From: Mogibacterium sp.
GTDB taxonomy: Bacteria > Bacillota > Clostridia > Peptostreptococcales > Anaerovoracaceae
Reading direction: 5' to 3'
Assembly: GCA_017405845.1 (NCBI GenBank)
Contig: JAFQZQ010000041.1
Span: 62,001 to 126,000, forward strand
DNA: 64,000 nucleotides
Positions 2,299 through 22,445 of the stretch are shown here, piece by piece. The first letter of the stretch is position 1, and each line of letters opens with the position of its first letter. The position numbers were made by a program, and so were the translations under genes. The notes under the pieces were generated by a model, which worked only from the letters and a program-made list of their open reading frames with translations, had not been told where the DNA came from and ran no database searches.

Positions 2299-2832
2299 CT
2301 ATCTCTTTGTTTCAATCAGTCCGTAAGCATTGCCCTTGCGCTTATATACTACGCTGACCTCATTTGTATCCATATCAAGGAATACGAAGAAATCGTGTCC
2401 GAGCATCTCCATCTGGAGAATAGCTTCCTCTGCTACCATAGGGGTAAGCTCGACCTGCTTTCTTCTGACGATGGTCATCTCTTCTTCAAAATCCTCGTCC
2501 TCCGGCTCCGGAACGAACTCGAGCTTGAGGGCTTTGTTTTCTTTATATCTCGACTCAAGTTTTCCCTTGAGTTTGCTCATCTGGTATTCAAGTTTATCTG
2601 TGACCAAATCAACTGCATCATAAATGCTGTCATTTGCCATCTCGGCTCTGAGTACTGCCTGCTTGGCATTGATTGTGGCCTCAAACTTAGGTGTTTCTCT
2701 GAGTTTTGATACAACGATGTTTGCTGTTGTGTCCTCATCGAAGAACTTGCCGATTTTTGTCAGCTTCTTCTCGATGTAGTCGCTGAGCTTCTCGCTCATT
2801 GGATAATTCTTTGATGAAATGTTGATCTTCAT
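2299..2832 (-). CDS. hpf: Ribosome hibernation promoting factor, long form (HPF/RaiA)
   Basis: Binds the 30S decoding region in slow growth and drives 100S ribosome dimer formation. The 177 residues comprise the N-terminal S30AE/RaiA fold (about 1-100, starting MKINISSKNYPMSEKLSDYI) and the C-terminal dimerisation domain (about 120-177, with VVRRKQVELTPMVAEEAILQ) that defines the long form. I place the start at the ATG at 2832 because GGAGG lies eight bases upstream and homologues start here. An in-frame start 29 codons further upstream would cross the promoter. A terminator at 2888-2923 and a TG-extended -10 (TACAAT, 2869-2874) suggest its own promoter. A raiA-like RNA lies 400 bp upstream on the same strand. 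Confidence 0.95.
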   Translation of the reverse strand: MKINISSKNYPMSEKLSDYIEKKLTKIGKFFDEDTTANIVVSKLRETPKFEATINAKQAVLRAEMANDSIYDAVDLVTDKLEYQMSKLKGKLESRYKENKALKLEFVPEPEDEDFEEEMTIVRRKQVELTPMVAEEAILQMEMLGHDFFVFLDMDTNEVSVVYKRKGNAYGLIETKR

Positions 2833-2887: not shown

Positions 2888-2923
2888 AAAAAATGTGTGC
2901 TCCTTCTGTGAAGAAGCACACAA
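2888..2923 (-). terminator. Rho-independent terminator between the 78-aa gene and hpf
   Basis: On the minus strand, arms GTGTGCTTCTT and AAGGAGCACAC close a short loop and are followed by a run of six T. It would end transcripts carrying the raiA-like RNA and the 78-aa gene before hpf. Confidence 0.75.
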
Positions 2924-2964: not shown

Positions 2965-3201
2965 TCAATCAGCATACCACAGCTTGCCAACAGCTTCTGC
3001 AAGTTTTTTGCCCTCAACAGGACCAATCTTGCATCTGAACTGTCTCTTTACCTCCAGCAAAGGAAGACCCATAGCCTTTCCCTTTTCAATGCCGGCGAGA
3101 ATAGCCTTCTCTGCGTCCTTGCTGATCGTTCCGTCGTCGGAGATTCCGCTGACGATACTCATAGCATCTTCAAACGTAATGTTCATTGTAGGATCGATCA
3201 T
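2965..3201 (-). CDS. Small hypothetical protein, 78 aa
   Basis: A 78-residue soluble protein starting MIDPTMNITFEDAMSIVSGI, with no signal peptide, membrane segment or cysteine pair that I recognise. A perfect AAGGAGG sits seven bases before the ATG, so it is very probably translated. It lies between the raiA-like RNA, which ends about 40 bp upstream, and a terminator about 40 bp downstream. It may therefore be the only protein encoded on the RNA transcript. I do not recognise the family and assign no function. It is predicted largely alpha-helical, with alternating charged and hydrophobic residues. Confidence 0.75.
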   Translation of the reverse strand: MIDPTMNITFEDAMSIVSGISDDGTISKDAEKAILAGIEKGKAMGLPLLEVKRQFRCKIGPVEGKKLAEAVGKLWYAD

Positions 3202-3239
3202 TACTTTTCCTCCTTGGAATAATTCCGATTATTGATTAG

Positions 3240-3410
3240 CCCCGCGGTCATTCGACCTGGTCTTTGACCCCACACTTGCCTTTACCCGCTTTGCGGAGGA
3301 CTTACTTCTAAGATACGCCATGATCACAGCCGCCTCTTGCCTGCTGCTTACGTGGGTCCCTTTGCCCGTATCTGGCATGGACTTTCAACCACGAACATGA
3401 CCGCGGACTT
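3240..3410 (-). ncRNA. Structured RNA, probable raiA-motif RNA
   Basis: No coding frame covers this ~170-nt stretch, yet its minus-strand sequence is densely paired. A closing stem of nine Watson-Crick pairs (CCGCGGTCA at 3398-3406 with TGACCGCGG at 3242-3250) encloses several hairpins. One pairs CGTGG with CCACG around an inner GTCC/GGAC and GCC/GGC stem. Others are CAGC/GCTG, CCGC-AAA-GCGG and GGTC-AAA-GACC. Length, closed-ring architecture and position upstream of hpf (=raiA) fit the raiA RNA motif known from Clostridia. The motif assignment is inference, since I could not run a covariance search. I see no clear promoter directly upstream, so it may start inside or be processed from the hypA operon transcript. 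It is followed by the 78-aa gene and a terminator. Confidence 0.68.
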
Positions 3411-3450: not shown

Positions 3451-3651
3451 TTATTTCTTCTTGCTCGCCTTGACTTCCTTCTCGAGCATATTCTCAAGTC
3501 TGTCTCTTGCCTTTGGATCATATGCGAATGCATTGTCATCTCCGGCAAGGAAAGCTTCGAGATTCGGAAGACGGACGCCGGCCTTGTAGTTCATCTTGAA
3601 CAGCTCGACGTTGAGCGCTTTTACGACATCGCGCATTTCCTGATTGGTCAT
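3451..3651 (-). CDS. Small hypothetical protein, 66 aa
   Basis: A 66-residue basic, soluble protein starting MTNQEMRDVVKALNVELFKM and ending in a lysine-rich tail (KASKKK). The ATG at 3651 is chosen because AAGGAGG lies seven bases upstream. A longer frame from 3750 would overlap hypA by 71 bp with no ribosome binding site. The gene is 28 bp downstream of hypA on the same strand and is the last coding unit before the raiA-like RNA. I do not recognise the family. The absence of cysteines argues against a metal-cluster protein. Confidence 0.7.
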   Translation of the reverse strand: MTNQEMRDVVKALNVELFKMNYKAGVRLPNLEAFLAGDDNAFAYDPKARDRLENMLEKEVKASKKK

Positions 3652-3679: not shown

Positions 3680-4090
3680 TCACTGAGGTTTATACTCGCC
3701 TGTTGCCTCGAGTTCTCCGGTGTTCTCTTCATCTGCCGCATCGTTATCATAGACCTCTACCGACTTTATTCTCATCTCATTACCGCGGAGCAGCCATGTT
3801 TTTCCGCTTCCGCAGTGCGGGCATGTCTTGCCGTAAGTAACAGTAGAGTATGTGATCTTGCAGTTGTCACACCATGTCACAGCAGGTATCTCTTCACAGT
3901 ACAGTCTGGAGCCTTCAAACATAGGGTATTTCTTTGAATACCAGTTCCAGTAGTCGTAAAGATACGCTGTAACGATTCCCGAAACCTCACCGAATTCCAG
4001 CGTCACGGATTTGACCTTCTTGACGTTGTTAGCCTCGGCGATCTTACTAACCTCTTTAACAGTATAATTTACAAGTCCTAGTTCGTGCAT
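3680..4090 (-). CDS. hypA: HypA-family nickel metallochaperone
   Basis: HypA delivers nickel to [NiFe] hydrogenase, with HypB. The 136 residues begin MHELGLVNYTV, giving the N-terminal nickel ligand His2 and Glu3. The zinc site is present as CDNC and CPHC about 20 residues apart, near residues 73-97. An acidic extension of about 25 residues follows the usual C-terminus (DNDAADEENTGELEATGEYK). It lies 18 bp downstream of the large Fe-S oxidoreductase gene and no hypB-F or hydrogenase gene is in the window. It may therefore serve a nickel enzyme elsewhere, or may have been recruited to the neighbouring oxidoreductase. The family assignment is secure; the partner is not known. Confidence 0.88.
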   Translation of the reverse strand: MHELGLVNYTVKEVSKIAEANNVKKVKSVTLEFGEVSGIVTAYLYDYWNWYSKKYPMFEGSRLYCEEIPAVTWCDNCKITYSTVTYGKTCPHCGSGKTWLLRGNEMRIKSVEVYDNDAADEENTGELEATGEYKPQ

Positions 4091-4108: not shown

Positions 4109-6901
4109 TTATCTTCCTACGACTTTCTTCTTAATGATACCTGCAACTCTGGACGGCATGTGCTTTCCGATTCCAACGAACTTCTTCTCTGCAGGAATCA
4201 TGTTGGAGAACTTGTCTCCATCCGGCAGACGGAACAGGTGGATAGCGTCGAACTTGCACTGTACTGTGCACATTCCGCAGCCGATGCACTTGTTGGTGTC
4301 TACTACGCTGCGTCCGCACTTGAGGCATCTCTCTGCTTCCTTCTTGATCTGCTCTTCGCTGAACTGCTTGATCTCGTAGTCCATTGTGAGCTTCTTGCTC
4401 TCGTCGATCTCTCTGATCTGGCGAGGAGGCTTTCTGAAGTCTGCTGCAGGGATAACGACATCGTCCTTGTTGAGCATCTCAAAGTGACGTGTATTTCTGT
4501 GGATCATCAGGTGCTGTCCTTCGTTGACGAATCTGTGCAGCGATACAGCTCCTTCACGTCCCATTGCGAGAGCGTCAACTACGAACTTCTGTCCGCTTAC
4601 GGAGTCTCCGCCTGCGAAGATGTCAGGCTCGCCTGTCTGAAGTGTTACAGGGTCTGCGATGATCATTCCGCGTGGGCTGAGCTCTACCTTTGTGCCCTCG
4701 AACAGTTTGCCGTAATCAGGCTTCTGGCCGATGCTGAAGAGAACTGTGGAGCAAGCCTGCTCTGTTGTCTGAGCATCGTCGAATGTAGGTGCGAATCTGC
4801 CCTCTGCGTTCTTTACGCTGAGGCACTTTCTGAATTTGATTCCTGCAACCTTGCCGCCCTTTGTAACGACTTCTGTCTGGCCCCAACCATCGTGGATAAT
4901 GATACCTTCGTTCTTGAGGAATTCCTGATCCTCAGCACCCATAGGCATCTCGTCATAGGACTCGAGACAGTACAGATGTACGCTCTTAGCTCCCTGACGG
5001 ATAGCTGTACGTGCTACGTCAGCTCCGATGTTTCCGCCGCCGATGACTACTACGTCGCCGCTGAGCTTCTTAGCCTTGCCGAGTGTAACAGTCTTGACGT
5101 AATCTACGCCGCCGATGACTCCCTCAGCATCATCGCCAGGGATTCCCAGCTTGCCGCAGCTCTGGAGACCTGTTCCTACGAAGAAGCCCTTGAAGCCTTC
5201 TTCACGGAGCTGCTGGAATGTAACGTCCTTACCAACTTCAACTCCGCATCTGATCTCAACGCCCATCTCCTTGAGGATATCGATTTCAGCGTTTACTACC
5301 TTCTTGTCGAGTCTGAAGTTAGGAATTCCGAGTACCATCATTCCGCCGGCCATCTCCTGTTTTTCGAATACTACAGGCTTGTAGCCTTCGATAGCCAGGA
5401 AGTAAGCGCAGGACAGTCCTGCAGGGCCGGATCCTACGATACCGATCTTCTGGTCAAAGTGCTCTCTGGTTGTGGAAACCATTGGCGGGATGTATTTGTG
5501 CTCATCCTCGAGGTCCTTTGCAGCGATGAATGCCTTGATATCATCGATAGCAAGAGCTTCGTCAACTGTTCCTCTGGTGCACTCGAGCTCGCAGTACTTG
5601 TGGCAGATAGCGCCGCATACTGCAGGGAACGGGTTATCTCTCTTGATGAGTTCGAGAGCTGCTCTGTAGTCGCCTCTCGAAGCCATGTCAATGTAACCCT
5701 GAATAGCGATATGGAGCGGGCATGCAGACTTGCAAGGTGCTGTACCTGTAGGCCATGTCTGGATGACGCCGTTCTCGTTCTTGTAGTTCCAGTTCCACTT
5801 GGATTCCGGCCAGAAGTTGCTGTCAGGCAGCTCCTGCTTCGGATATTCGATTTCGCCATGCTTTGTGCAGAGCTTCTGTCCGAGTCTGACAGCGCCTGCA
5901 GGGCAGACCTCTACGCACTTGCCGCAAGCTACGCACTTCTCAGGATCAACTTCTGAGCGGTAAGGCGATGCGGAAAGGTTAGGTGTATTGAAGAGCTGTG
6001 ATGTACGGAGAGCATTGCAGACTCCGACAGCGCAGTTGCAGATAGCGAAGATCTTGTTCTCGCCGTCGATGTTTGTTACCTGATGTACATAGCCCTTTTC
6101 TTCAGCCTTCTTGAGGATCTCAATAGCTTCATCATAAGTGATGTCATAGCCCATGCCTGTCTCTTTGCAGTAGTCAGCAAAGTCGCCGAGTCCCATGCAC
6201 CAATACTGCATGATGTCTCCGGAGCCCTCGCCTCTCATTGTCTGCTGCTTACGGCAGGAGCACATACCAACGCCGATCTGTCCTTCGTATTTCTTGAGCC
6301 AGTATGAGATGTGCTCGATGTCGAGTGACTCGCACTCTGCAGGGATAGCTTCCTCTACAGGGATAACGTGCATTCCGATGCCCGATCCGCCAGGAGCAAC
6401 CATCTGAGTGATGCCTGCCAGCGGCAGGTAAGTCATTCTCTCGAAGAAGTCAGCGATCTGAGGTGTCTCAGCCATGATCTGGTCTCTCATTACCATGATC
6501 TCTGCACTGCCCGGTACGAACTGGTCGAGGACGTAACGTCTCTCGTGCTGAGGATTCTTGCCATCCTCATTCTCGTTGTTCCACTCTACCAGACCGAACT
6601 GTCCAAGAGCCTCGAGTACCTTCTTGAGGTGCTCATCATCGTATCCCGTAAGTTCTTTCATCTTAGCGAAAGTTCTCGGTTTACGCTTTCCCATAACAAG
6701 AGCAGTGTCCAGGCACTCCTCAGCGATCTCTTTGCCGTATCTTCTAACGACATACTGATAACCGCAGTCGAATCCCCAGTATTCAGGAGAATCCTTCGAA
6801 GGTTTCTCGAGTCCGAGCAAGATCTCTTTACGGTCAGTGATGATCTTAGTAAGCTTAAAGATCTTCTCGTCGTGGCTCAGCTGTTTAGCCTTTTTTGCCA
6901 T
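4109..6901 (-). CDS. Large multi-domain Fe-S/flavin NAD(P)-linked oxidoreductase, 930 aa
   Basis: Predicted cytoplasmic electron-transfer enzyme of the glutamate synthase small subunit (GltD/NfnB) superfamily with extra domains. Order: an N-terminal ~300-residue region of unclear function with cysteines in MCSCRKQQ and YWCMG (about 213-240) and a CNCAVGVC segment; a 4Fe-4S motif CVACGKCVEVC (about 322-333); a GltD-type N-terminal cluster domain with CKSAC and CGAICHKYCELEC (about 387-445); an FAD Rossmann motif GSGPAGLSCAY (about 488); an NAD(P) motif GGGNIGADVA (about 617); and a C-terminal ferredoxin with CLKC and CIGCGMCTVQC (about 858-885). The start ATG at 6901 has GAGGGA upstream. It is flanked by a TetR gene and hypA on the same strand. 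The natural substrate is unknown; it could be a bifurcating or NAD(P)H:ferredoxin-type enzyme. Confidence 0.85.
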   Translation of the reverse strand: MAKKAKQLSHDEKIFKLTKIITDRKEILLGLEKPSKDSPEYWGFDCGYQYVVRRYGKEIAEECLDTALVMGKRKPRTFAKMKELTGYDDEHLKKVLEALGQFGLVEWNNENEDGKNPQHERRYVLDQFVPGSAEIMVMRDQIMAETPQIADFFERMTYLPLAGITQMVAPGGSGIGMHVIPVEEAIPAECESLDIEHISYWLKKYEGQIGVGMCSCRKQQTMRGEGSGDIMQYWCMGLGDFADYCKETGMGYDITYDEAIEILKKAEEKGYVHQVTNIDGENKIFAICNCAVGVCNALRTSQLFNTPNLSASPYRSEVDPEKCVACGKCVEVCPAGAVRLGQKLCTKHGEIEYPKQELPDSNFWPESKWNWNYKNENGVIQTWPTGTAPCKSACPLHIAIQGYIDMASRGDYRAALELIKRDNPFPAVCGAICHKYCELECTRGTVDEALAIDDIKAFIAAKDLEDEHKYIPPMVSTTREHFDQKIGIVGSGPAGLSCAYFLAIEGYKPVVFEKQEMAGGMMVLGIPNFRLDKKVVNAEIDILKEMGVEIRCGVEVGKDVTFQQLREEGFKGFFVGTGLQSCGKLGIPGDDAEGVIGGVDYVKTVTLGKAKKLSGDVVVIGGGNIGADVARTAIRQGAKSVHLYCLESYDEMPMGAEDQEFLKNEGIIIHDGWGQTEVVTKGGKVAGIKFRKCLSVKNAEGRFAPTFDDAQTTEQACSTVLFSIGQKPDYGKLFEGTKVELSPRGMIIADPVTLQTGEPDIFAGGDSVSGQKFVVDALAMGREGAVSLHRFVNEGQHLMIHRNTRHFEMLNKDDVVIPAADFRKPPRQIREIDESKKLTMDYEIKQFSEEQIKKEAERCLKCGRSVVDTNKCIGCGMCTVQCKFDAIHLFRLPDGDKFSNMIPAEKKFVGIGKHMPSRVAGIIKKKVVGR

Positions 6902-6996
6902 ACTTTTCCCTCTCTTTCTCTTACAGTAACTATTTTATTTTTTATAAAATGCCTTGATAAAGGCTTCTTATCAGATTTAACAAAACACGGATGCAG

Positions 6997-7575
6997 CTAC
7001 TTCGAGATGATTCCGTTTACGAGTATGTCCGCAACCTCAGAAAGCGCATCCCTGTACGAAATGTGGTTCTTTACGAGCACGTCTTTCTGGAAAAACTGCT
7101 CTACAGTCGCCTGGAACATCGTCTTCAGAATCGGCAGCGATATCGGTCTGATGGCGCCTTCATTTATGCCTTTTTCAAGCAGCAAGGCAACGCCCTCCCA
7201 GTAGTTCTCACGGCAGAACTTCCAGTGTCTGTATACTGAAGGATATTTCTCCCTGAGAACGTAGAGCTGAGTCAGATCGTTCTGTGTATAGCGATCAGGC
7301 ACGCGGCCGATTATCTGCTTCAGCTGCTCCGGGATGGTGAGGGTATCGTCGTTGAGAATCATTTCTTCCTCGATCAGAGCTTCATCAAAGAAGCGATCGA
7401 TCGTCTCAGTCATGATGGAGCGTTTGTCCTCAAAAACGGTATAGATGGTCTTTTTACTCATGCCAAGCGCGTGAGCAAGATCATCCATCGTGAACTTTAT
7501 GCCTTTTTTGTCAAACTGTTTTGCTGCTTCGTCAAGAATGCGTATTCGAAGCTCATTTGATGTGTCTGTTTTCAT
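6997..7575 (-). CDS. TetR/AcrR family transcriptional regulator
   Basis: A 192-residue regulator with the TetR DNA-binding domain at about 8-55 (FTMDDLAHALGMSKKTIYTVF is the helix-turn-helix region) and a ligand-binding C-terminal domain. I choose the ATG at 7575 because GAGGGA lies about seven bases upstream. A GTG five codons further upstream would lie within that ribosome binding site. The gene is 95 bp upstream of the 930-residue oxidoreductase on the same strand, so it probably controls that operon and itself. The ligand cannot be predicted. Confidence 0.88.
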   Translation of the reverse strand: MKTDTSNELRIRILDEAAKQFDKKGIKFTMDDLAHALGMSKKTIYTVFEDKRSIMTETIDRFFDEALIEEEMILNDDTLTIPEQLKQIIGRVPDRYTQNDLTQLYVLREKYPSVYRHWKFCRENYWEGVALLLEKGINEGAIRPISLPILKTMFQATVEQFFQKDVLVKNHISYRDALSEVADILVNGIISK

Positions 7576-7599
7576 GTCGTAGTCCCTCACTTGAGAAGA

Positions 7600-8803: not shown

Positions 8804-9352
8804 TTATACAGAAAGCTGAGTCTTGAGCTTCTCGAACATCTTCCTTACAGCCGGGATGTTGATGACGATGATGGTCATAATTCCTTCGACAGCGAGATAA
8901 GTGATGTTGTACCACAGCGACCATGTGAGGGCATTGAAGTTCTCAGGTGCATATTCACCAAAGAAGATGACTCCACTGAGCACAGCACAGATGTATCTGC
9001 TGAATGTTCCGAGCAGATATCCCTTTGTAAGACCGTTCTTCTTGTTTCTGACAAGTCCCGACAGTCCCATTACTGCGAAAGCGATAATGTAGTCGAGTAT
9101 CATCTGTACAGGATGGATGACATATCCTCCGAAGATGAGGTTAAGAAGTCCCGTGACAGCTCCGCCGAGAATGCCCCATCTGGTTCCGAGCAGGTATCCG
9201 AGCGCGATGATAGGCAGCGTTCCGAAGAGCGTTACCGAGCCGCCCTGAGGCATTGAGAACAGCTTGATCTGATCGAGTATCATCGCCAGAGCTACAAGAA
9301 GCGCTGTTGTCGTGAGTTTTACCGTGTAATTTCTTCCCTTGTTCTTTTCCAT
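8804..9352 (-). CDS. thiT: Thiamine-specific ECF transporter S component ThiT
   Basis: Membrane substrate-binding subunit that captures thiamine for a shared ECF ATPase/T module encoded elsewhere. The 182 residues contain about six hydrophobic segments. The family-typical motifs are FGG near residue 75 and HPVQMILDYIIAFAVMG following it. The TPP riboswitch upstream gives independent support for thiamine as substrate. The ATG at 9352 follows a GGAGG embedded in a hairpin (9362-9384). A strong terminator follows at 8747-8771. Confidence 0.93.
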   Translation of the reverse strand: MEKNKGRNYTVKLTTTALLVALAMILDQIKLFSMPQGGSVTLFGTLPIIALGYLLGTRWGILGGAVTGLLNLIFGGYVIHPVQMILDYIIAFAVMGLSGLVRNKKNGLTKGYLLGTFSRYICAVLSGVIFFGEYAPENFNALTWSLWYNITYLAVEGIMTIIVINIPAVRKMFEKLKTQLSV

Positions 9353-9384: not shown

Positions 9385-9426
9385 CGCGCTGAATGCAGAA
9401 GCACATAATAAGTTCTGATAACGATT

Positions 9427-9513
9427 ATACCTTCCTACGCCGGCATTACCCGGATCAGGTGTAAGGGTCATCCCTTGCGGGACCTCTCAGCAATTGCTCC
9501 CCCGGTGTTTTGC
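9427..9513 (-). ncRNA. TPP riboswitch (THI element)
   Basis: The minus strand carries the conserved thiamine pyrophosphate aptamer blocks: CCGGGGGAGC, then GCTGAGAGG, then ACCCTTACACCTGATCCGGG, then TAATGCCGGCGTAGGAA. Stems P1-P3 are all recognisable. It lies about 75 bp upstream of thiT on the same strand. When TPP is bound it should lower thiT expression through the hairpin at 9354-9384. Confidence 0.97.
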
Positions 9514-9646: not shown

Positions 9647-10354
9647 ATGAGACTTGACAAATTTCTGTCCGACATGGGCGCCGGAACAAGAAGCGAACTT
9701 AAAAAAGATATACGCAAGGGAAATGCGAGTGTAGACGGGGTGACAGTGAAGGATCCCGGCTTCAGCGTCAGCCCTTCTTCGCGTGTCATCTATAAGGGAT
9801 CTGTTATCGGATACGATGAATTTGAGTATTACATGCTCAACAAGCCGGCCGGAGTTATAAGCGCCAGCGAGGATGACCGCGAGCCTACCGTTGTGGATCT
9901 TATAACAGGACTGAAGCGGAAAGATCTTTTCCCTGTAGGCCGCCTCGACCGCGATACCGAAGGTCTCCTTCTTATAACAAACGACGGCGCGCTTGCGCAC
10001 CGCCTTCTCTCGCCTAAGCATCATGTCGATAAAGTCTACTACGTGAAAGTGTCGGGTATCCTGACGGGCAGCGACGTTGAGCTTTTCGGAGAGGGTCTCG
10101 TTCTTACGGATGGCCTCGAGTGTCTGCCGGCAGATCTCAGAATAATATCTACAAGCGATGAGGATTATGAATCAGAAGCTGAGATAACCATACGCGAGGG
10201 CAAGTTCCACCAGGTGAAGCGCATGTTCAGCTCTGTCGGAGCTGAAGTCATCTACCTCAAAAGGTTATCGATGGGATCCCTGTCACTCGATCCCGCTCTG
10301 GTCCCGGGTGAATACCGGCCACTGACTCCGGAGGAATTGTCATCACTCAAATAA
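9647..10354 (+). CDS. rsuA: 16S rRNA pseudouridine synthase RsuA family
   Basis: Isomerises a uridine (U516 in E. coli numbering) of 16S rRNA to pseudouridine. The 235 residues comprise an S4 RNA-binding domain (about 1-55, MRLDKFLSDMGAGTRSEL) and the RsuA/RluB/E/F catalytic domain with GRLDRDTEGLLL, catalytic Asp101. The start has AAAGGAG seven bases upstream. The 3' end overlaps that of comF by 8 bp in convergent orientation. Confidence 0.9.
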   Translation: MRLDKFLSDMGAGTRSELKKDIRKGNASVDGVTVKDPGFSVSPSSRVIYKGSVIGYDEFEYYMLNKPAGVISASEDDREPTVVDLITGLKRKDLFPVGRLDRDTEGLLLITNDGALAHRLLSPKHHVDKVYYVKVSGILTGSDVELFGEGLVLTDGLECLPADLRIISTSDEDYESEAEITIREGKFHQVKRMFSSVGAEVIYLKRLSMGSLSLDPALVPGEYRPLTPEELSSLK

Positions 10355-11135
10355 TCATGTCCCCTGCAGCGGCAAAGGTGAGAAAGTCTACGGTCTCCGC
10401 CCCGCTGCTTTTCAGCAGCTTCGCTATCTCATCTATCGTTGAACCGGTCGTGAAAATGTCATCTATCAGCAGGATCCTTGCACCTTCTATCCGCGGGAGC
10501 CTGCTGTTTCTTATTGCGAAAGCCCCGCTTATGTTTGCTCTTCTTTCTTCTGGTCCAAGGCCTTTCATCGGCTGAGTCTCACGTGTTCTGATAAGAGCTC
10601 CGGGGTCAGACCTGAGACCGGTCCTTTTCACAAAGCCTCTGCTTATCAGTTCAGCATGATTGAACCCCCTTCTTTTGAGCTTCTCAATGTGTATAGGCAC
10701 GGGTATCACGATGTCGTACATCCCCGCAAGCTCATCAGCTTCGTACTCAGAAAGCATGTAATCGCTGAGCATTTCTCCGAGCGTATCACCTATATCCGCA
10801 CGCCCGCCGTACTTAAGTGCAAATATGACGGACTGTGCACAGGCACCGTAAGATGTGCAGGCATGACCCCTGTCAAAGAAGTGCTCATGGCCGGCAGTCT
10901 CCTCTCTGGCACAGCCAAAACACAGCTCTCCTGGGTCGGTATCAGCCAGAGGCCGTCCGCACTTGCTGCAGTGCCGCCCTGTATTCCAGTTCATCGCCTT
11001 CATACAGTCGTTGCAGAGCCGGTAGGTGCGCGTATCATCTATGATTTTCCCGCAGCAAATGCAATAAAGACCCGGAGGATACACCAGGTCAAGCAATTCA
11101 TTTCCTATTCTTTTTATCCACGAATTCTCTTTCAC
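10347..11135 (-). CDS. comF: ComF family protein (competence/phosphoribosyltransferase-like)
   Basis: ComF proteins support DNA uptake in transformation and carry a phosphoribosyltransferase fold. The 262 residues start with a zinc-ribbon region containing CICCG, CNDC, CSKCG and CFGC. A type I PRTase motif follows near the C-terminus (ILLIDDIFTTGST). I place the start at the GTG at 11135, 3 bp after the recD2 stop, because it starts at the usual position before the zinc ribbon. An in-frame ATG at 11183 would overlap recD2 by 46 bp and cannot be excluded. Neither has a strong ribosome binding site, consistent with translational coupling. Confidence 0.85.
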   Translation of the reverse strand: MKENSWIKRIGNELLDLVYPPGLYCICCGKIIDDTRTYRLCNDCMKAMNWNTGRHCSKCGRPLADTDPGELCFGCAREETAGHEHFFDRGHACTSYGACAQSVIFALKYGGRADIGDTLGEMLSDYMLSEYEADELAGMYDIVIPVPIHIEKLKRRGFNHAELISRGFVKRTGLRSDPGALIRTRETQPMKGLGPEERRANISGAFAIRNSRLPRIEGARILLIDDIFTTGSTIDEIAKLLKSSGAETVDFLTFAAAGDMII

Positions 11136-11137
11136 AG

Positions 11138-13372
11138 TCAAAATCGTCCGAACGGATCCGAGTCGAGTGCCAGCAGGCGCCATTTGAGGCCCGTGTACCT
11201 GCCGTCAGCGCGGTTGTTGTCTATCATGGAGCGCACGCGCGCAGGGTCTCCCACTATAACAACGAGCTTTTTTCCTCTTGTTACCGCAGTGTAAAGAAGA
11301 TTGCGCGTCATCAGCATAGGCGGGAAGCTCCACACAGGTATAACCACTGCAGGGAACTCAGAACCCTGGCTTTTGTGCACAGTAACAGCATACGCGAGGT
11401 CTATCTCCTCAAGCATGTCTCCCATATATTCTATGATGCGGTCGTCCATCCTGACCGTCATCGTCTTGTCATCGCTGTCTATCTCCTCAACTGTGCCCAT
11501 GTCGCCGTTGAACACACCCTCGCCTTCTGTCGAGAAGTAATCGGTGCGCCACTCGGCTCCATAATTGTTGCGCAGCTGCATCACCTTGTCTCCTTCGCGG
11601 AAGGTGACATTTCCGATCTTAAGCTCCGCCTTGTCTTCTGACGGAGGATTGATTACCTCCTGGAGCATAGCATTGAGGCTCGGTGCTCCGAGCATGCCCC
11701 TCTTTGTAGGTGTCAGTATCTGTATATCGTCAGCCGAATGCACAAAGTCAAATCCGGCTTCGATGCGGCCGCCCACCAGCTCTCTGATGGTGTCGCTGAT
11801 GGAAGTCTCGCTGTTTTTACTGATGATATAAAAATCGTTGCCGCTCTGCTGTTCCGGATATTCTCCGCTGTTTATGAGGTGCGAGTTGGTTACTATGCCG
11901 CTTCCCTCAGCCTGTCTGAAGATCTCCACTAACCTTATGACCGGGATGCACTCGCTGGCTATCATGTCGCGGAGCACATTGCCGGCTCCTACAGGAGGCA
12001 GCTGATCGGCATCACCCGTGAAGATGAGGCGCGTTCCCTCCTTCACAGCATTAAGTAATCCGTCCATCAGCATCAGGTCTATCATCGATGCTTCGTCAAC
12101 TATTATCACATCCTCCTCGAGCGGGTTTTCTTCATTCCTGCCGAAGTTGAGCATGTCTTCCTCTTCAGACCACACGTATTCGAGCATGCGGTGGATAGTC
12201 ATGGCCGGTTTGCCCGAGGCTTCCTCCATTCGCTTGGCTGCCCTTCCGGTAGGTGCCGCAAGAGCAACTGAAAGCCCCGCAAAGTCAAAGAGCTTTACGA
12301 GCGTGTTTATGATCGTGGTCTTACCCGTGCCCGGACCGCCGGTGATTATCGTTACGTTGTTGGTGAGGCACTCGAGTATAGCGCGCTTCTGTTCAACCGA
12401 AAGCTCGACCCCCTCTCCCAGAGGATCGTCAGAGCTCATTCTGACAGCGTCGAGGAAGTTGTCCGCCTGCACCGGGATGGTCTTAAGAGCTGCGTTCCTT
12501 ATCTTGATAAGCTCATGCGCAACCCGCTGCTCTGCGTGGTAGTAGCCGTAAAGATATATGACTGGCTGTTCATCAATGCGGTCCTCTTCGAGTTCTCCCG
12601 CAAACACCATGTTCTTGAGCGAATCTCTCACGTCGTCCATCATGACATCGAGAAACTCCGCTGTCTTCTCTATCAGATAATTCTCCGGCATGAGCGTGCT
12701 GCCGCTCGCCGCCCATGATTTGAGCATGTAGCGTATGCCGCTCTCGATCCTGACGCTGCTCTCCGGCTCCACTCCGAGTCTGGCTGCAATCGCATCCGCC
12801 CTGTTGAAATTGATTCCGCGGATGTCTTCAACGAGTATGTACGGATTCTCGCTTACAACTCTTACGGAATCCTTTCCGTACATTTTATAGACCCTGACCG
12901 CCTCGTTCATCTCAATGCCGAGTTCGCGAAGTTCTATCGCTGTATTTGCGAACTCCCTCGATTCGCCGAAGGACTCGCTTATCTTTGCCAGCGTCTTCGC
13001 CCCTATGCCGCTCACCATGAGCAGCTTCTCAGGGGTATCCTCTATCACCGTCAGGGATTCGTCGCCGAACATATCCACTATCAGCCGTGCAGTCTTTGGG
13101 CCGATGCCGCGGATGTTGCCCGCAGAAAGGAACTCGAGTATCGCGTCGGCTCCCTCAGGCATCATCTCTTCATATGACGACACGCTGAACTGCTCACCAT
13201 ACCTCGGGTGTATGGTGAACCTTCCCTCCAGCCTGTACTTTGCGCCGGTTTTGGGTTCAGCAAAAGAACCGGCTATACGGATCGCGCCTGCTTCGGTGTC
13301 GAAGACCGCTACGGTATAGCCGTTCTCGGGATTGTTGAATATTATCTTTCCGAGTTTACCTTCTTGCTGCAT
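11138..13372 (-). CDS. recD2: RecD2-type ATP-dependent DNA helicase
   Basis: SF1B 5'-3' helicase acting in DNA repair and replication-fork processing, without RecBC. The 744 residues match the family length. An N-terminal OB-like domain and tandem helix-hairpin-helix region (about 80-200, with IRGIGPKTA and VSGIGAKTL) precede the helicase core. The core has Walker A GGPGTGKTT (345-353), Walker B DEAS and the C-terminal TVHKSQGSEF motif. It is 3 bp downstream of yhaM and is followed directly by comF; all three are probably one transcript. Confidence 0.94.
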   Translation of the reverse strand: MQQEGKLGKIIFNNPENGYTVAVFDTEAGAIRIAGSFAEPKTGAKYRLEGRFTIHPRYGEQFSVSSYEEMMPEGADAILEFLSAGNIRGIGPKTARLIVDMFGDESLTVIEDTPEKLLMVSGIGAKTLAKISESFGESREFANTAIELRELGIEMNEAVRVYKMYGKDSVRVVSENPYILVEDIRGINFNRADAIAARLGVEPESSVRIESGIRYMLKSWAASGSTLMPENYLIEKTAEFLDVMMDDVRDSLKNMVFAGELEEDRIDEQPVIYLYGYYHAEQRVAHELIKIRNAALKTIPVQADNFLDAVRMSSDDPLGEGVELSVEQKRAILECLTNNVTIITGGPGTGKTTIINTLVKLFDFAGLSVALAAPTGRAAKRMEEASGKPAMTIHRMLEYVWSEEEDMLNFGRNEENPLEEDVIIVDEASMIDLMLMDGLLNAVKEGTRLIFTGDADQLPPVGAGNVLRDMIASECIPVIRLVEIFRQAEGSGIVTNSHLINSGEYPEQQSGNDFYIISKNSETSISDTIRELVGGRIEAGFDFVHSADDIQILTPTKRGMLGAPSLNAMLQEVINPPSEDKAELKIGNVTFREGDKVMQLRNNYGAEWRTDYFSTEGEGVFNGDMGTVEEIDSDDKTMTVRMDDRIIEYMGDMLEEIDLAYAVTVHKSQGSEFPAVVIPVWSFPPMLMTRNLLYTAVTRGKKLVVIVGDPARVRSMIDNNRADGRYTGLKWRLLALDSDPFGRF

Positions 13373-19402: not shown

Positions 19403-21001
19403 TTACCAAGCATTCTCGTCATCGAGGATCTCGAGCGATGGATCGAGCGGCTCTTCCTGCATTACTGTTCTCATGTACTGGTTGACCTGGTCACGTACGC
19501 CCTGTCTCGAAATGACACGAGGGTCGAAGAGCTGGTGATCTACCCAGATCAGAGGAATGCCGCGTTCTCTTGCCTTATCTTCGAAGAGTCCGTGCATGCC
19601 ATCCAGAGCCTTGCAGGTGATATGCTCCCAGAGAATGATCATATCTGCATTGAATTCCTCAACGAATTCGAAGAGGTCGTCGAGCAGCACCTTGTAACCG
19701 CCGTGTGTACGGTTACGCATGATCATCTCCTCTGTCAGCATGGCCATATCGTAGTAAGCCTGTTCTCTGTTTTCAGGAGTATCCTCTTCTGCGATCATCT
19801 CCGTGTTGATGCATGAGAGCATGTCTGTCAGAGGCACGATGCCCCAGCAGTTAAGCAGCCATACGAGGAAGTCCATGTAGTAGTGTGACTGAACTCCCCA
19901 GACGATCGCTCTGTGGCGATACTCAGGAGCAGCCATCTTTCTCTTCTTGTATGCCTTCTCAGCCAGCTTCATGAGGCGTCTGTCAGCGACTTCGAATTCA
20001 GGCACCTTGCCGCAGATAGCCATGTATGTGGTCTCTGTGTAAAGAGCAAGGTTTCCGCCGAAGATCTGCGGATAGTCTGTCTTGTTCATGTCGAGCCATT
20101 CGTTACGGCACTTGGTCGCATAGTTGACTCTCTTAGCACATTCGAAGTAGTAATCCCAGTCCCACTTGTGGCCTGTATGCTCTTCGATAAACTTTATAGC
20201 TCTTCTGACTTCTTCAGCAGCGTAGTCCTGAACGTCGTCTTCCTTGTGACGGAGCGGAGCCGGCAACTGGAATACAGGAATGCCGTCTTCCTTCTCGAGT
20301 CTCTCGGAGATTACACCGTTTCCGAGCAGCGAACCGTCACATGTGGTGTTGCACTGTACTGCGCAGGCACCGAGGATAGGTGCGTCGTCGTCGATGGAAA
20401 CGCCTGCTTCTGCCTCAGGCATCGGGCAGACATCGCCAGGGAGTCCGTACTCCTGAGCTACGTCGATGTAGTGCTCCATAGCGTGCTGGTTGAGCAGTAC
20501 GGAGACGTATGTCGAAGGAGTCTCACGGGATGTGCACTTCAGGTTAGGGAAGCCCATCATTACCGCTGTCATCTCGTTCTCGTCTACGAGTACGTTTCTC
20601 TTGGAGAACTCTTCGTCATTTCCGGTTCTGCGGTCACCGCGTGCCAGTGTGTTGAGCAGCTTGGCAACGTCGATGATGATGAGGTCCTGCTCCTCGTGAG
20701 CCATACGGAGGTACTCGCCTCTGAGGCCCTGTGTGAAGCGGTCTACCATCATAGGTACTGCCAGATAGTTAGCCATCCAGCGGTATCTGAAGAAGAACTT
20801 GATATTGCGCGGAACTGCCACGAACTTGCCGAGCGTGAACATGATTCCGAGCCATCTGGAATAATCGTAGAGAGTGTCGCCGAGGCCTCTCCACTCACGG
20901 CGCTTTCTTACCTTGCCATGCGGAATGTAAAGGTCGCCGTATCTTGTGTCGCCCTTTATCTTTTCAGGGTTGACCATGGTCTTGAATTTTCTTACTGCCA
21001 T
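19403..21001 (-). CDS. 2-hydroxyacyl-CoA dehydratase-type subunit (HgdA/B family), 532 aa
   Basis: Subunit of an oxygen-sensitive Fe-S enzyme family that removes water from (R)-2-hydroxyacyl-CoA, or reduces aromatic acyl-CoA, in amino-acid fermentation. The 532 residues exceed the usual 370-480 because of a ~90-residue N-terminal basic region. Family features include CAVQCNTTCDGSLLGNG (about 212-228, cluster cysteines) and the C-terminal region ILWEHITCKALDGMHGLFED. The ATG at 21001 is used because AGGAGGG lies six bases upstream; a GTG one codon earlier is too close. It follows its partner subunit by 2 bp. The substrate is unknown. Confidence 0.82.
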   Translation of the reverse strand: MAVRKFKTMVNPEKIKGDTRYGDLYIPHGKVRKRREWRGLGDTLYDYSRWLGIMFTLGKFVAVPRNIKFFFRYRWMANYLAVPMMVDRFTQGLRGEYLRMAHEEQDLIIIDVAKLLNTLARGDRRTGNDEEFSKRNVLVDENEMTAVMMGFPNLKCTSRETPSTYVSVLLNQHAMEHYIDVAQEYGLPGDVCPMPEAEAGVSIDDDAPILGACAVQCNTTCDGSLLGNGVISERLEKEDGIPVFQLPAPLRHKEDDVQDYAAEEVRRAIKFIEEHTGHKWDWDYYFECAKRVNYATKCRNEWLDMNKTDYPQIFGGNLALYTETTYMAICGKVPEFEVADRRLMKLAEKAYKKRKMAAPEYRHRAIVWGVQSHYYMDFLVWLLNCWGIVPLTDMLSCINTEMIAEEDTPENREQAYYDMAMLTEEMIMRNRTHGGYKVLLDDLFEFVEEFNADMIILWEHITCKALDGMHGLFEDKARERGIPLIWVDHQLFDPRVISRQGVRDQVNQYMRTVMQEEPLDPSLEILDDENAW

Positions 21002-21003
21002 CA

Positions 21004-22197
21004 CTAACCCTCCTTCTGTATCTTCTTGATGTCAATACTTTCAAGGAATGCCTGTACACGGGTACGCATCTGTCCCGACGAACCGATAGTATACGGTCTG
21101 TCTACTGCGAGCACCGGCCAGTCATACCTGTTTCTGAGGATATGTGATCCCATCATTCTTTCATAAGCCCATGGATCGCAGAACTTCATCTGCTGATAGA
21201 TGATACCATCTGCCTTGTACTCCTTAGCGAGTTCATCGACATACTCACGGCGGTGATCCATTTTCTCTGTGTTCATGTAGCGTGGGCACTCGCCTCTGTT
21301 CATGTATGCTCTGCATACCTGAGTGAGCGCGTCCTCTTCATCGTTCAGTTCGATAGGATCTCTGCCAGGAAGCGAACCGTAGCAGTATCTGTCGGCACAA
21401 ACGAAAGCGCCGCTTTCTTCGACCAGTTTGATGAAGTCTGTATCGTCTACCTCAGAACCAACGACTTCAACTCTTGCCTTGAACCAAGGCTTAGCATCAG
21501 GCTCTCTCGTCTTGAGCTCTTCGAGAGTCTCTTCGAGCTTGTCGATGATGAGATGCTTTGGAGCTACATAAGATGCCAGGCAGAATACATTGAATTCGTA
21601 TCCTGTGATAGTCGGCTTGTCGAGCTTGCGGAAGTCTCCGATGGCTCTGATAAGCTCGCAGACCCTATTGTGCTCGGCTACTGCTTTGCGGATCGCAGCG
21701 TCGGAAACGTCGATTCCGTAGTTTTCAGCCAGAGGCTTCAGAATGTGGTTTTTGCACTGCACTACGTAAAGGTCGAGACCATTGTAGTCCGCCTTCATAG
21801 GGATCTCCATGTAGTCAAAGAAGAAACCCTTCTTGTCCTTGCCCATTGCCTGCAGAACATCCATGTTTTCTACGCAGCGGTTGAGCATTGTGCAGCCGTC
21901 AGGTGTGATTACAGCATCAAGGAAGTTGTAACCTCCTTCAAGAGCTCTCTCAAGGATAGCCCTTGAATACTCACACAGAAAGCTGGTGAGATAATATGTA
22001 CCTACATCGATCGAGCCTGTGCGCGGAGCGCGGAGTCTTGCCGAAAAGCAGCCAGGCAGATTGATAAGAGGCTCAGGCACGTTCTCGCACATATATCCTA
22101 TGCACTTCATGCCCTCTTTCTGGGCCTGTGCAACCAGCTCATTGTTTGCTTCCTGCAGCAGGTCCTCGAAATAAATCAGGTGCTTTAAGTCTTTCAC
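21004..22197 (-). CDS. 2-hydroxyacyl-CoA dehydratase-type subunit (HgdA/B family), 397 aa
   Basis: Partner subunit of the gene just downstream. The 397 residues match the smaller subunit of the family. The likely cluster-binding segments are CENVPEPLINLPGC (about 38-51) and TPDGCTMLNRCVENMD (about 100-115). A C-terminal QMKFCDPWAYERMMG segment also fits the fold. It starts with GTG at 22197, with GGGAG about seven bases upstream. The ATP-dependent activator (HgdC/FldI type) and a CoA-transferase, usually next to such genes, are missing here. It is divergent from csoR. Confidence 0.82.
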   Translation of the reverse strand: MKDLKHLIYFEDLLQEANNELVAQAQKEGMKCIGYMCENVPEPLINLPGCFSARLRAPRTGSIDVGTYYLTSFLCEYSRAILERALEGGYNFLDAVITPDGCTMLNRCVENMDVLQAMGKDKKGFFFDYMEIPMKADYNGLDLYVVQCKNHILKPLAENYGIDVSDAAIRKAVAEHNRVCELIRAIGDFRKLDKPTITGYEFNVFCLASYVAPKHLIIDKLEETLEELKTREPDAKPWFKARVEVVGSEVDDTDFIKLVEESGAFVCADRYCYGSLPGRDPIELNDEEDALTQVCRAYMNRGECPRYMNTEKMDHRREYVDELAKEYKADGIIYQQMKFCDPWAYERMMGSHILRNRYDWPVLAVDRPYTIGSSGQMRTRVQAFLESIDIKKIQKEG

Positions 22198-22362
22198 GTC
22201 TCTCCCTCTCTAATTTTCTCTCTAACACGGCCAATCCGGCCGCAGGGCACCGGAGAACATGATGCCCCATACTATTGTGGTTATTTTATCACGCGAAACT
22301 ATTTTGGCACAATTAGTTTCATGAATATGAGCAACTCTGAACACAAAAAAACATCTCCTTCT

Positions 22363-22419
22363 TGACGCATACCCTCACAGGGTATATATTACACACTAAG
22401 AGATACCCCCACTGGGTAT
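22363..22419 (+). promoter_or_regulatory. csoR-copA promoter with two CsoR-type palindromes
   Basis: Two 17-bp palindromes, ATACCCTCACAGGGTAT (22369-22385) and ATACCCCCACTGGGTAT (22403-22419), share the arms ATACCC and GGGTAT and are 34 bp apart. The first fills the spacer between TTGACG (22363-22368) and TATATT (22385-22390). The arms match the GTATACCCC-like sites of CsoR proteins, so copper-free CsoR bound here should block the promoter. Confidence 0.85.
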
Positions 22420-22445
22420 ATATGATCATAGCAACGAGGTTACAC

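Follow-up and report, generated by a model that had tools for sequence, protein, structure and literature searches.

At positions 3243-3405 on the minus strand, the window (the whole stretch of 64,000 nucleotides that was analysed) holds a true copy of the published raiA (ModT) RNA family. On balance, this copy is best understood as a functional, trans-acting raiA RNA with a short P6, which is carried within an operon, apparently has no promoter of its own, and is probably produced by read-through from a promoter ahead of tetR and trimmed out of the transcript. Membership of the family had been proposed in a first-pass annotation and is borne out by the covariance model RF03072, which matches over its full length (model positions 1-209) with 136 bits and an E value of 2.2e-33, above the gathering cut-off of 101.3 bits. 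When the whole window was searched with cmscan, two matches reached the gathering level, this RNA and a TPP riboswitch, and the genome as a whole (2.34 Mb in 52 contigs, 94.9% complete) gave a single raiA match.

Structure and occurrence of the RNA

The RNA and the structural elements recognised in it are these:

3243-3405, minus strand: raiA / ModT RNA (RF03072), variant 1 (short P6), 163 nt, by cmscan
3397-3405, minus strand: P1a 5' arm, perfect 9 bp with 3243-3251; both-side changes at 9/9 pairs in 57 sequences
3243-3251, minus strand: P1a 3' arm, by the same pairing in the alignment of 57
3367-3373, minus strand: P3 loop AGAUACG, the 5' half of pk-1 (7 bp with 3311-3317), by pairing and covariation
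3311-3317, minus strand: CGUAUCU, the 3' half of pk-1, by pairing and covariation
3319-3320, minus strand: UG, the 5' half of pk-2, partner CA at 3265-3266, in agreement with a cryo-EM contact (PMC11751092)
3279-3299, minus strand: short P6 stem-loop (variant 1), by alignment; variant definition from PMC11751092
3406-3414, minus strand: 5' flank UGAUAAGUC, an imperfect P1 extension with 3233-3242, by pairing; like the flanks in stand-alone relatives

Structures of raiA/ModT RNAs obtained by cryo-EM have been published (PMC11751092; PMC12286853), and the window RNA maps onto the C. acetobutylicum numbering (PMC11751092) to about A58. It belongs to variant 1, to which 32% of raiA RNAs have been assigned (PMC11751092). 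The nine-pair perfect closing stem described earlier is present, the first nine bases of the RNA (5' nonamer CGCGGUCAU) being fully complementary to the last nine (3' nonamer AUGACCGCG) when the element is read from 3405 to 3243. The helices found are P1a, P1b and P1c, P3a (GUCC/GGAC), P3b (GCC/GGC), P4 (CCAC/GUGG), P5 and P6 (CCGC AAA GCGG), with P3, P5 and P6 forming hairpins inside the RNA. The pseudoknot pk-1, which has been reported previously (PMC11751092), is paired at 7/7 positions in the window; across 57 family sequences 99.5% of its cells are paired, with double changes at 5/7 pairs. The bases of pk-2 (2 bp) are present and invariant in the same 57 sequences, and hence give no covariation signal.

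In the alignment of these 57 family sequences, 96.5% of the cells at the proposed pairs are paired, compared to 83.7% in shuffled and 31-44% in slid controls. The compensatory changes in homologues that had been named as a check were found at 31 of the 48 pairs, and 385 double-change cells were observed vs 101 in shuffles; no variation was seen in P4, in pk-2 or at the base of P6, which are thus uninformative on covariation. In the window's lineage P1b has changed from CUG/CAG to UCG/CGA. The minimum-energy fold is moderately better than that of shuffled sequences (z = -2.5, with 5/200 shuffles equally good), and energy folding was rejected as sole proof of structure, being a weak test here. 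The proof of structure consequently lies in the covariance model and the covariation, and it is the score of 136 bits together with the excess of double changes that rules out chance.

Of the 198 genomes sampled from the family, most of them metagenome assemblies, 176 have one copy of the raiA RNA, as do 43/47 within the genus, which makes the window RNA a routine member of the published RNA family. In relatives it lies mostly 5' of hpf on the same strand, and in some on the opposite strand. At six loci from members of the genus (L118, L125, L131, L132, L135 and L136), about 3.7-3.9 kb of other sequence separates a stand-alone raiA RNA from hpf, and the raiA-hpf locus seems, from these, to be prone to insertion.

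Gene neighbourhood of the RNA

The genes and signals around the RNA are listed below in the order of their coordinates:

2299-2832, minus strand: hpf, long-form ribosome hibernation factor (= raiA gene), by PF02482 and PF16321
2869-2877, minus strand: candidate hpf promoter, extended -10 TGTTACAAT, by motif
2894-2922, minus strand: predicted intrinsic terminator 3' of p78, -20.6 kcal/mol, z = -6.1
2965-3201, minus strand: p78, 78-aa protein, 41 nt 3' of the RNA, by ORF, dN/dS and its p66 neighbour in relatives
3451-3651, minus strand: p66, 66-aa protein, 5' of the RNA, by ORF and dN/dS
3680-4090, minus strand: hypA, by Pfam PF01155 (E 1.2e-29)
4109-6901, minus strand: GltD-like FAD/NAD(P) iron-sulphur oxidoreductase, 930 aa, by profile matches
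6997-7590, minus strand: TetR-family regulator opening the presumed operon, by PF00440
7639-7647, minus strand: candidate operon promoter, extended -10 TGGTAAAAT, by motif
10347-11183, minus strand: comF-like gene about 7 kb from the RNA, by TIGR00201 (E 1.5e-26, below cut-off)

The RNA and hpf, whose product matches Pfam Ribosomal_S30AE, share a strand, and the terminator and 78-aa ORF that had been placed between them are indeed there, so that the order 3' of the RNA is p78, terminator, extended -10 and hpf. The earlier view that the RNA and hpf may be transcribed independently fits the candidate extended -10 that hpf has just past the terminator. Two features go beyond that account, namely the 66-aa ORF that separates hypA from the RNA and the apparent position of the RNA inside an operon with no promoter of its own. 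On the 5' side the order is p66, hypA, the oxidoreductase and tetR, with comF beyond; comF is the gene that usually lies upstream of raiA RNA, and the comF and hpf neighbourhood is found in the window with other genes between comF and the RNA. The TPP riboswitch (RF00059, 66.1 bits) lies at 9415-9513 on the minus strand, just 5' of an integral-membrane ORF at 8804-9352, which resembles a ThiT-type thiamine transporter component.

Neither p66 nor p78 has a match in Pfam or NCBIfam, and judged by a median dN/dS of about 0.11 both are genuine genes. In the window's subclade the RNA stands between them at every one of 20 deduplicated loci, here called embedded. The order hypA-p66-p78-hgdC, with a p66-p78 gap of 16-110 bp and no RNA, was observed at L034 (from another genus), L040 and L205-L208, and p66 also adjoins p78 in L196-L198 and L200. 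Since the two genes are adjacent in relatives that lack the RNA between them, the RNA gene and the operon appear to have merged, with the RNA lodged between p66 and p78. A role for p78 as the partner protein of the RNA was considered and rejected, as other genomes have p78 beside p66 at sites distant from raiA. The hgdC homologues directly after hypA-p66-p78 in L034 and L040 indicate a break-up of this operon in the lineage of the window, where the hgdC-type dehydratase genes, a pair resembling 2-hydroxyacyl-CoA dehydratase / benzoyl-CoA reductase, are located at 19403-22197 on the minus strand. TATACCC...GGGTAT repeats occur at about 22360-22420 on the minus strand, 5' of a plus-strand ORF that resembles a CsoR-type metal sensor.

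One locus (L122:62-216) has the RNA after an apparent p66 end, the contig starting 62 nt before the RNA, followed immediately by the terminator and no p78; this may be an intermediate state or an assembly join at the contig end. In the hpf protein tree, the stand-alone loci L119, L122, L124 and L130 are found near the embedded L115-L117.

Transcription signals and expression of the RNA

Promoters were called from a consensus motif, with a matrix trained on stand-alone loci, which makes exact-match counts the cleaner comparison. Among the nearest stand-alone relatives, an exact TGNTANAAT occurs 20-26 nt 5' of the RNA in 18/21 and the -10 score exceeds the shuffled 95% level in 20/21, whereas this extended -10 precedes the RNA at 0/20 embedded loci; at one of these (L100) the -10 score merely equals its shuffled 95% level. 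An exact TGNTANAAT is present 54-106 nt 5' of tetR in all embedded loci where tetR was located. No terminator was detected in the gap between the RNA and p78 (0/20 embedded loci), and one follows p78 in 19/20. In most, the stem of this terminator (TGTGTGCTTCT...) is the one that L037 and L119 carry immediately after the RNA, which suggests that the ancestral RNA terminator has been displaced and would now close the operon behind p78. Hairpins in the p66-RNA spacer were dismissed as terminators, having no U-tracts on the RNA strand and varying between genomes. A small hairpin with an AU-rich stretch after it, shared by most embedded loci, was also noted in the tetR-oxidoreductase gap (6951-6964, minus strand); this weak hairpin is possibly an attenuator, which could dampen read-through, or a processing site.

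The simplest reading of this arrangement is probably a single transcript from tetR to the terminator, out of which the RNA is excised. In a Mogibacterium-like rumen/gut subclade, the RNA gene would have joined the operon tetR-oxidoreductase-hypA-p66-[RNA]-p78. Since no promoter could be recognised for the RNA itself, its transcription probably starts at the one ahead of tetR, about 4.2 kb away, and ribonucleases may then set it free by trimming at the extended P1 helix. The flanks extending P1 were discarded as a dedicated processing signal, those of stand-alone copies being alike (-6.4 vs -6.5 kcal/mol). Should the RNA be needed at an abundance similar to that in C. difficile, a site 4 kb downstream of the operon promoter would be ill suited to its production.

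The most serious competitor to transcription from the tetR promoter, though we consider it clearly the less likely, is a stand-alone raiA gene whose promoter, either atypical or divergent, would lie in the spacer after p66 or within the last part of that gene. A SigA promoter belonging to the RNA itself is known from C. difficile (PMC11706538), the nearest stand-alone relatives have one by motif, and AT-rich sequence lies directly 5' of the window RNA; a promoter of the RNA may be of another type or lie within p66. However, no -10-like match beats shuffles at the 20 embedded loci, in the face of near-perfect extended -10 elements in the nearest relatives, and p66 ends about 30 nt 5' of the RNA in some loci. 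The loss of the promoter motif from embedded copies could alternatively mark a decaying remnant, whose promoter was lost after operon formation and whose function is gone, and we give this hardly any credence. The embedded RNA, with a conservation of 94% across 21 loci, exceeds the p78 and p66 proteins in this respect, shows compensatory changes in the P1 stem and almost no indels, and retains scores above the gathering cut-off; to judge from these sequences, it is not decaying.

A cis-acting, riboswitch-like leader controlling p78 or hpf would agree with the Rfam type label of RF03072 ('Cis-reg; riboswitch'), with the start of p78 41 nt 3' of the RNA on the same strand and with the position of hpf after the RNA on the same strand in most relatives. 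This explanation is nevertheless very improbable, considering that p66-p78 pairs free of the RNA exist in relatives, that hpf is preceded by a terminator and a separate candidate promoter, and that trans complementation has been reported in C. difficile and C. acetobutylicum (PMC11706538). Nor is the fixed leader position expected of a cis riboswitch observed, as the downstream gene, the distance and the strand vary among relatives, with RNA and hpf even on opposite strands in some. For the read-through RNA of the tetR operon, trans action as found in studies of other species would be the expected mode.

Function and comparison with known systems

The raiA/ModT phenotypes described so far have been connected with sporulation, aggregation and c-di-GMP, the original genetic study of raiA reportedly being that of Soares et al. 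in 2024. In the sampled family, the RNA is retained in 42/44 genomes without SpoIVA and GGDEF matches (among them 31 with a completeness of at least 90%) and in 41/44 genomes with both. This equal frequency indicates that neither sporulation nor c-di-GMP alone accounts for its core role, and constitutes a natural test of the RNA's real purpose. In C. difficile the trans-acting RNA ranks with the most abundant RNAs and is transcribed from a SigA promoter, and its loss leads to later entry into stationary phase, with effects on sporulation via c-di-GMP (PMC11706538). Unlike in that species, the window's genome (94.9% complete) has no match for SpoIVA or GGDEF, and its Spo0A-C match is weak, at 55.6 bits vs about 150-160 in most SpoIVA-bearing relatives. 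The published link to sporulation and c-di-GMP is probably one downstream branch of the RNA's role. The mechanism to which we commit would be that of an abundant, folded RNA acting in trans, most likely with a conserved protein or other macromolecular partner, and tuning the exit from fast growth.

The apparent rewiring of expression into a metabolic operon in one subclade would indicate which expression features are dispensable. There is perhaps an even chance that the promoterless raiA RNA is made only by processing of the TetR-controlled redox operon's transcript, which would link an RNA otherwise kept at housekeeping level to metabolism; its core function, in a genome that lacks both sporulation and c-di-GMP synthesis, would then be more basic. 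The RNA family itself is already known; the operon-embedded, promoterless state would be new if transcripts confirm it.

When compared to raiA RF03072 and C. difficile ModT, the window RNA has the same P1, P3-P6 and pk-1 as well as the bases of pk-2, and as is typical of raiA it precedes hpf on a shared strand, with comF on that strand further upstream. It differs from the usual raiA RNA in being contained in an operon, with p66 and p78 at its sides, and from C. difficile ModT in having no extended -10 of its own and a terminator only behind p78. A SigA-type promoter of its own with a nearby terminator, an expression trait and not an Rfam criterion, was not detected in the embedded clade. An analogy, for expression only, is offered by OLE RNA, unrelated to raiA RNA in sequence and fold, which is a large structured RNA that resides in a protein operon and is presumably processed out of it.
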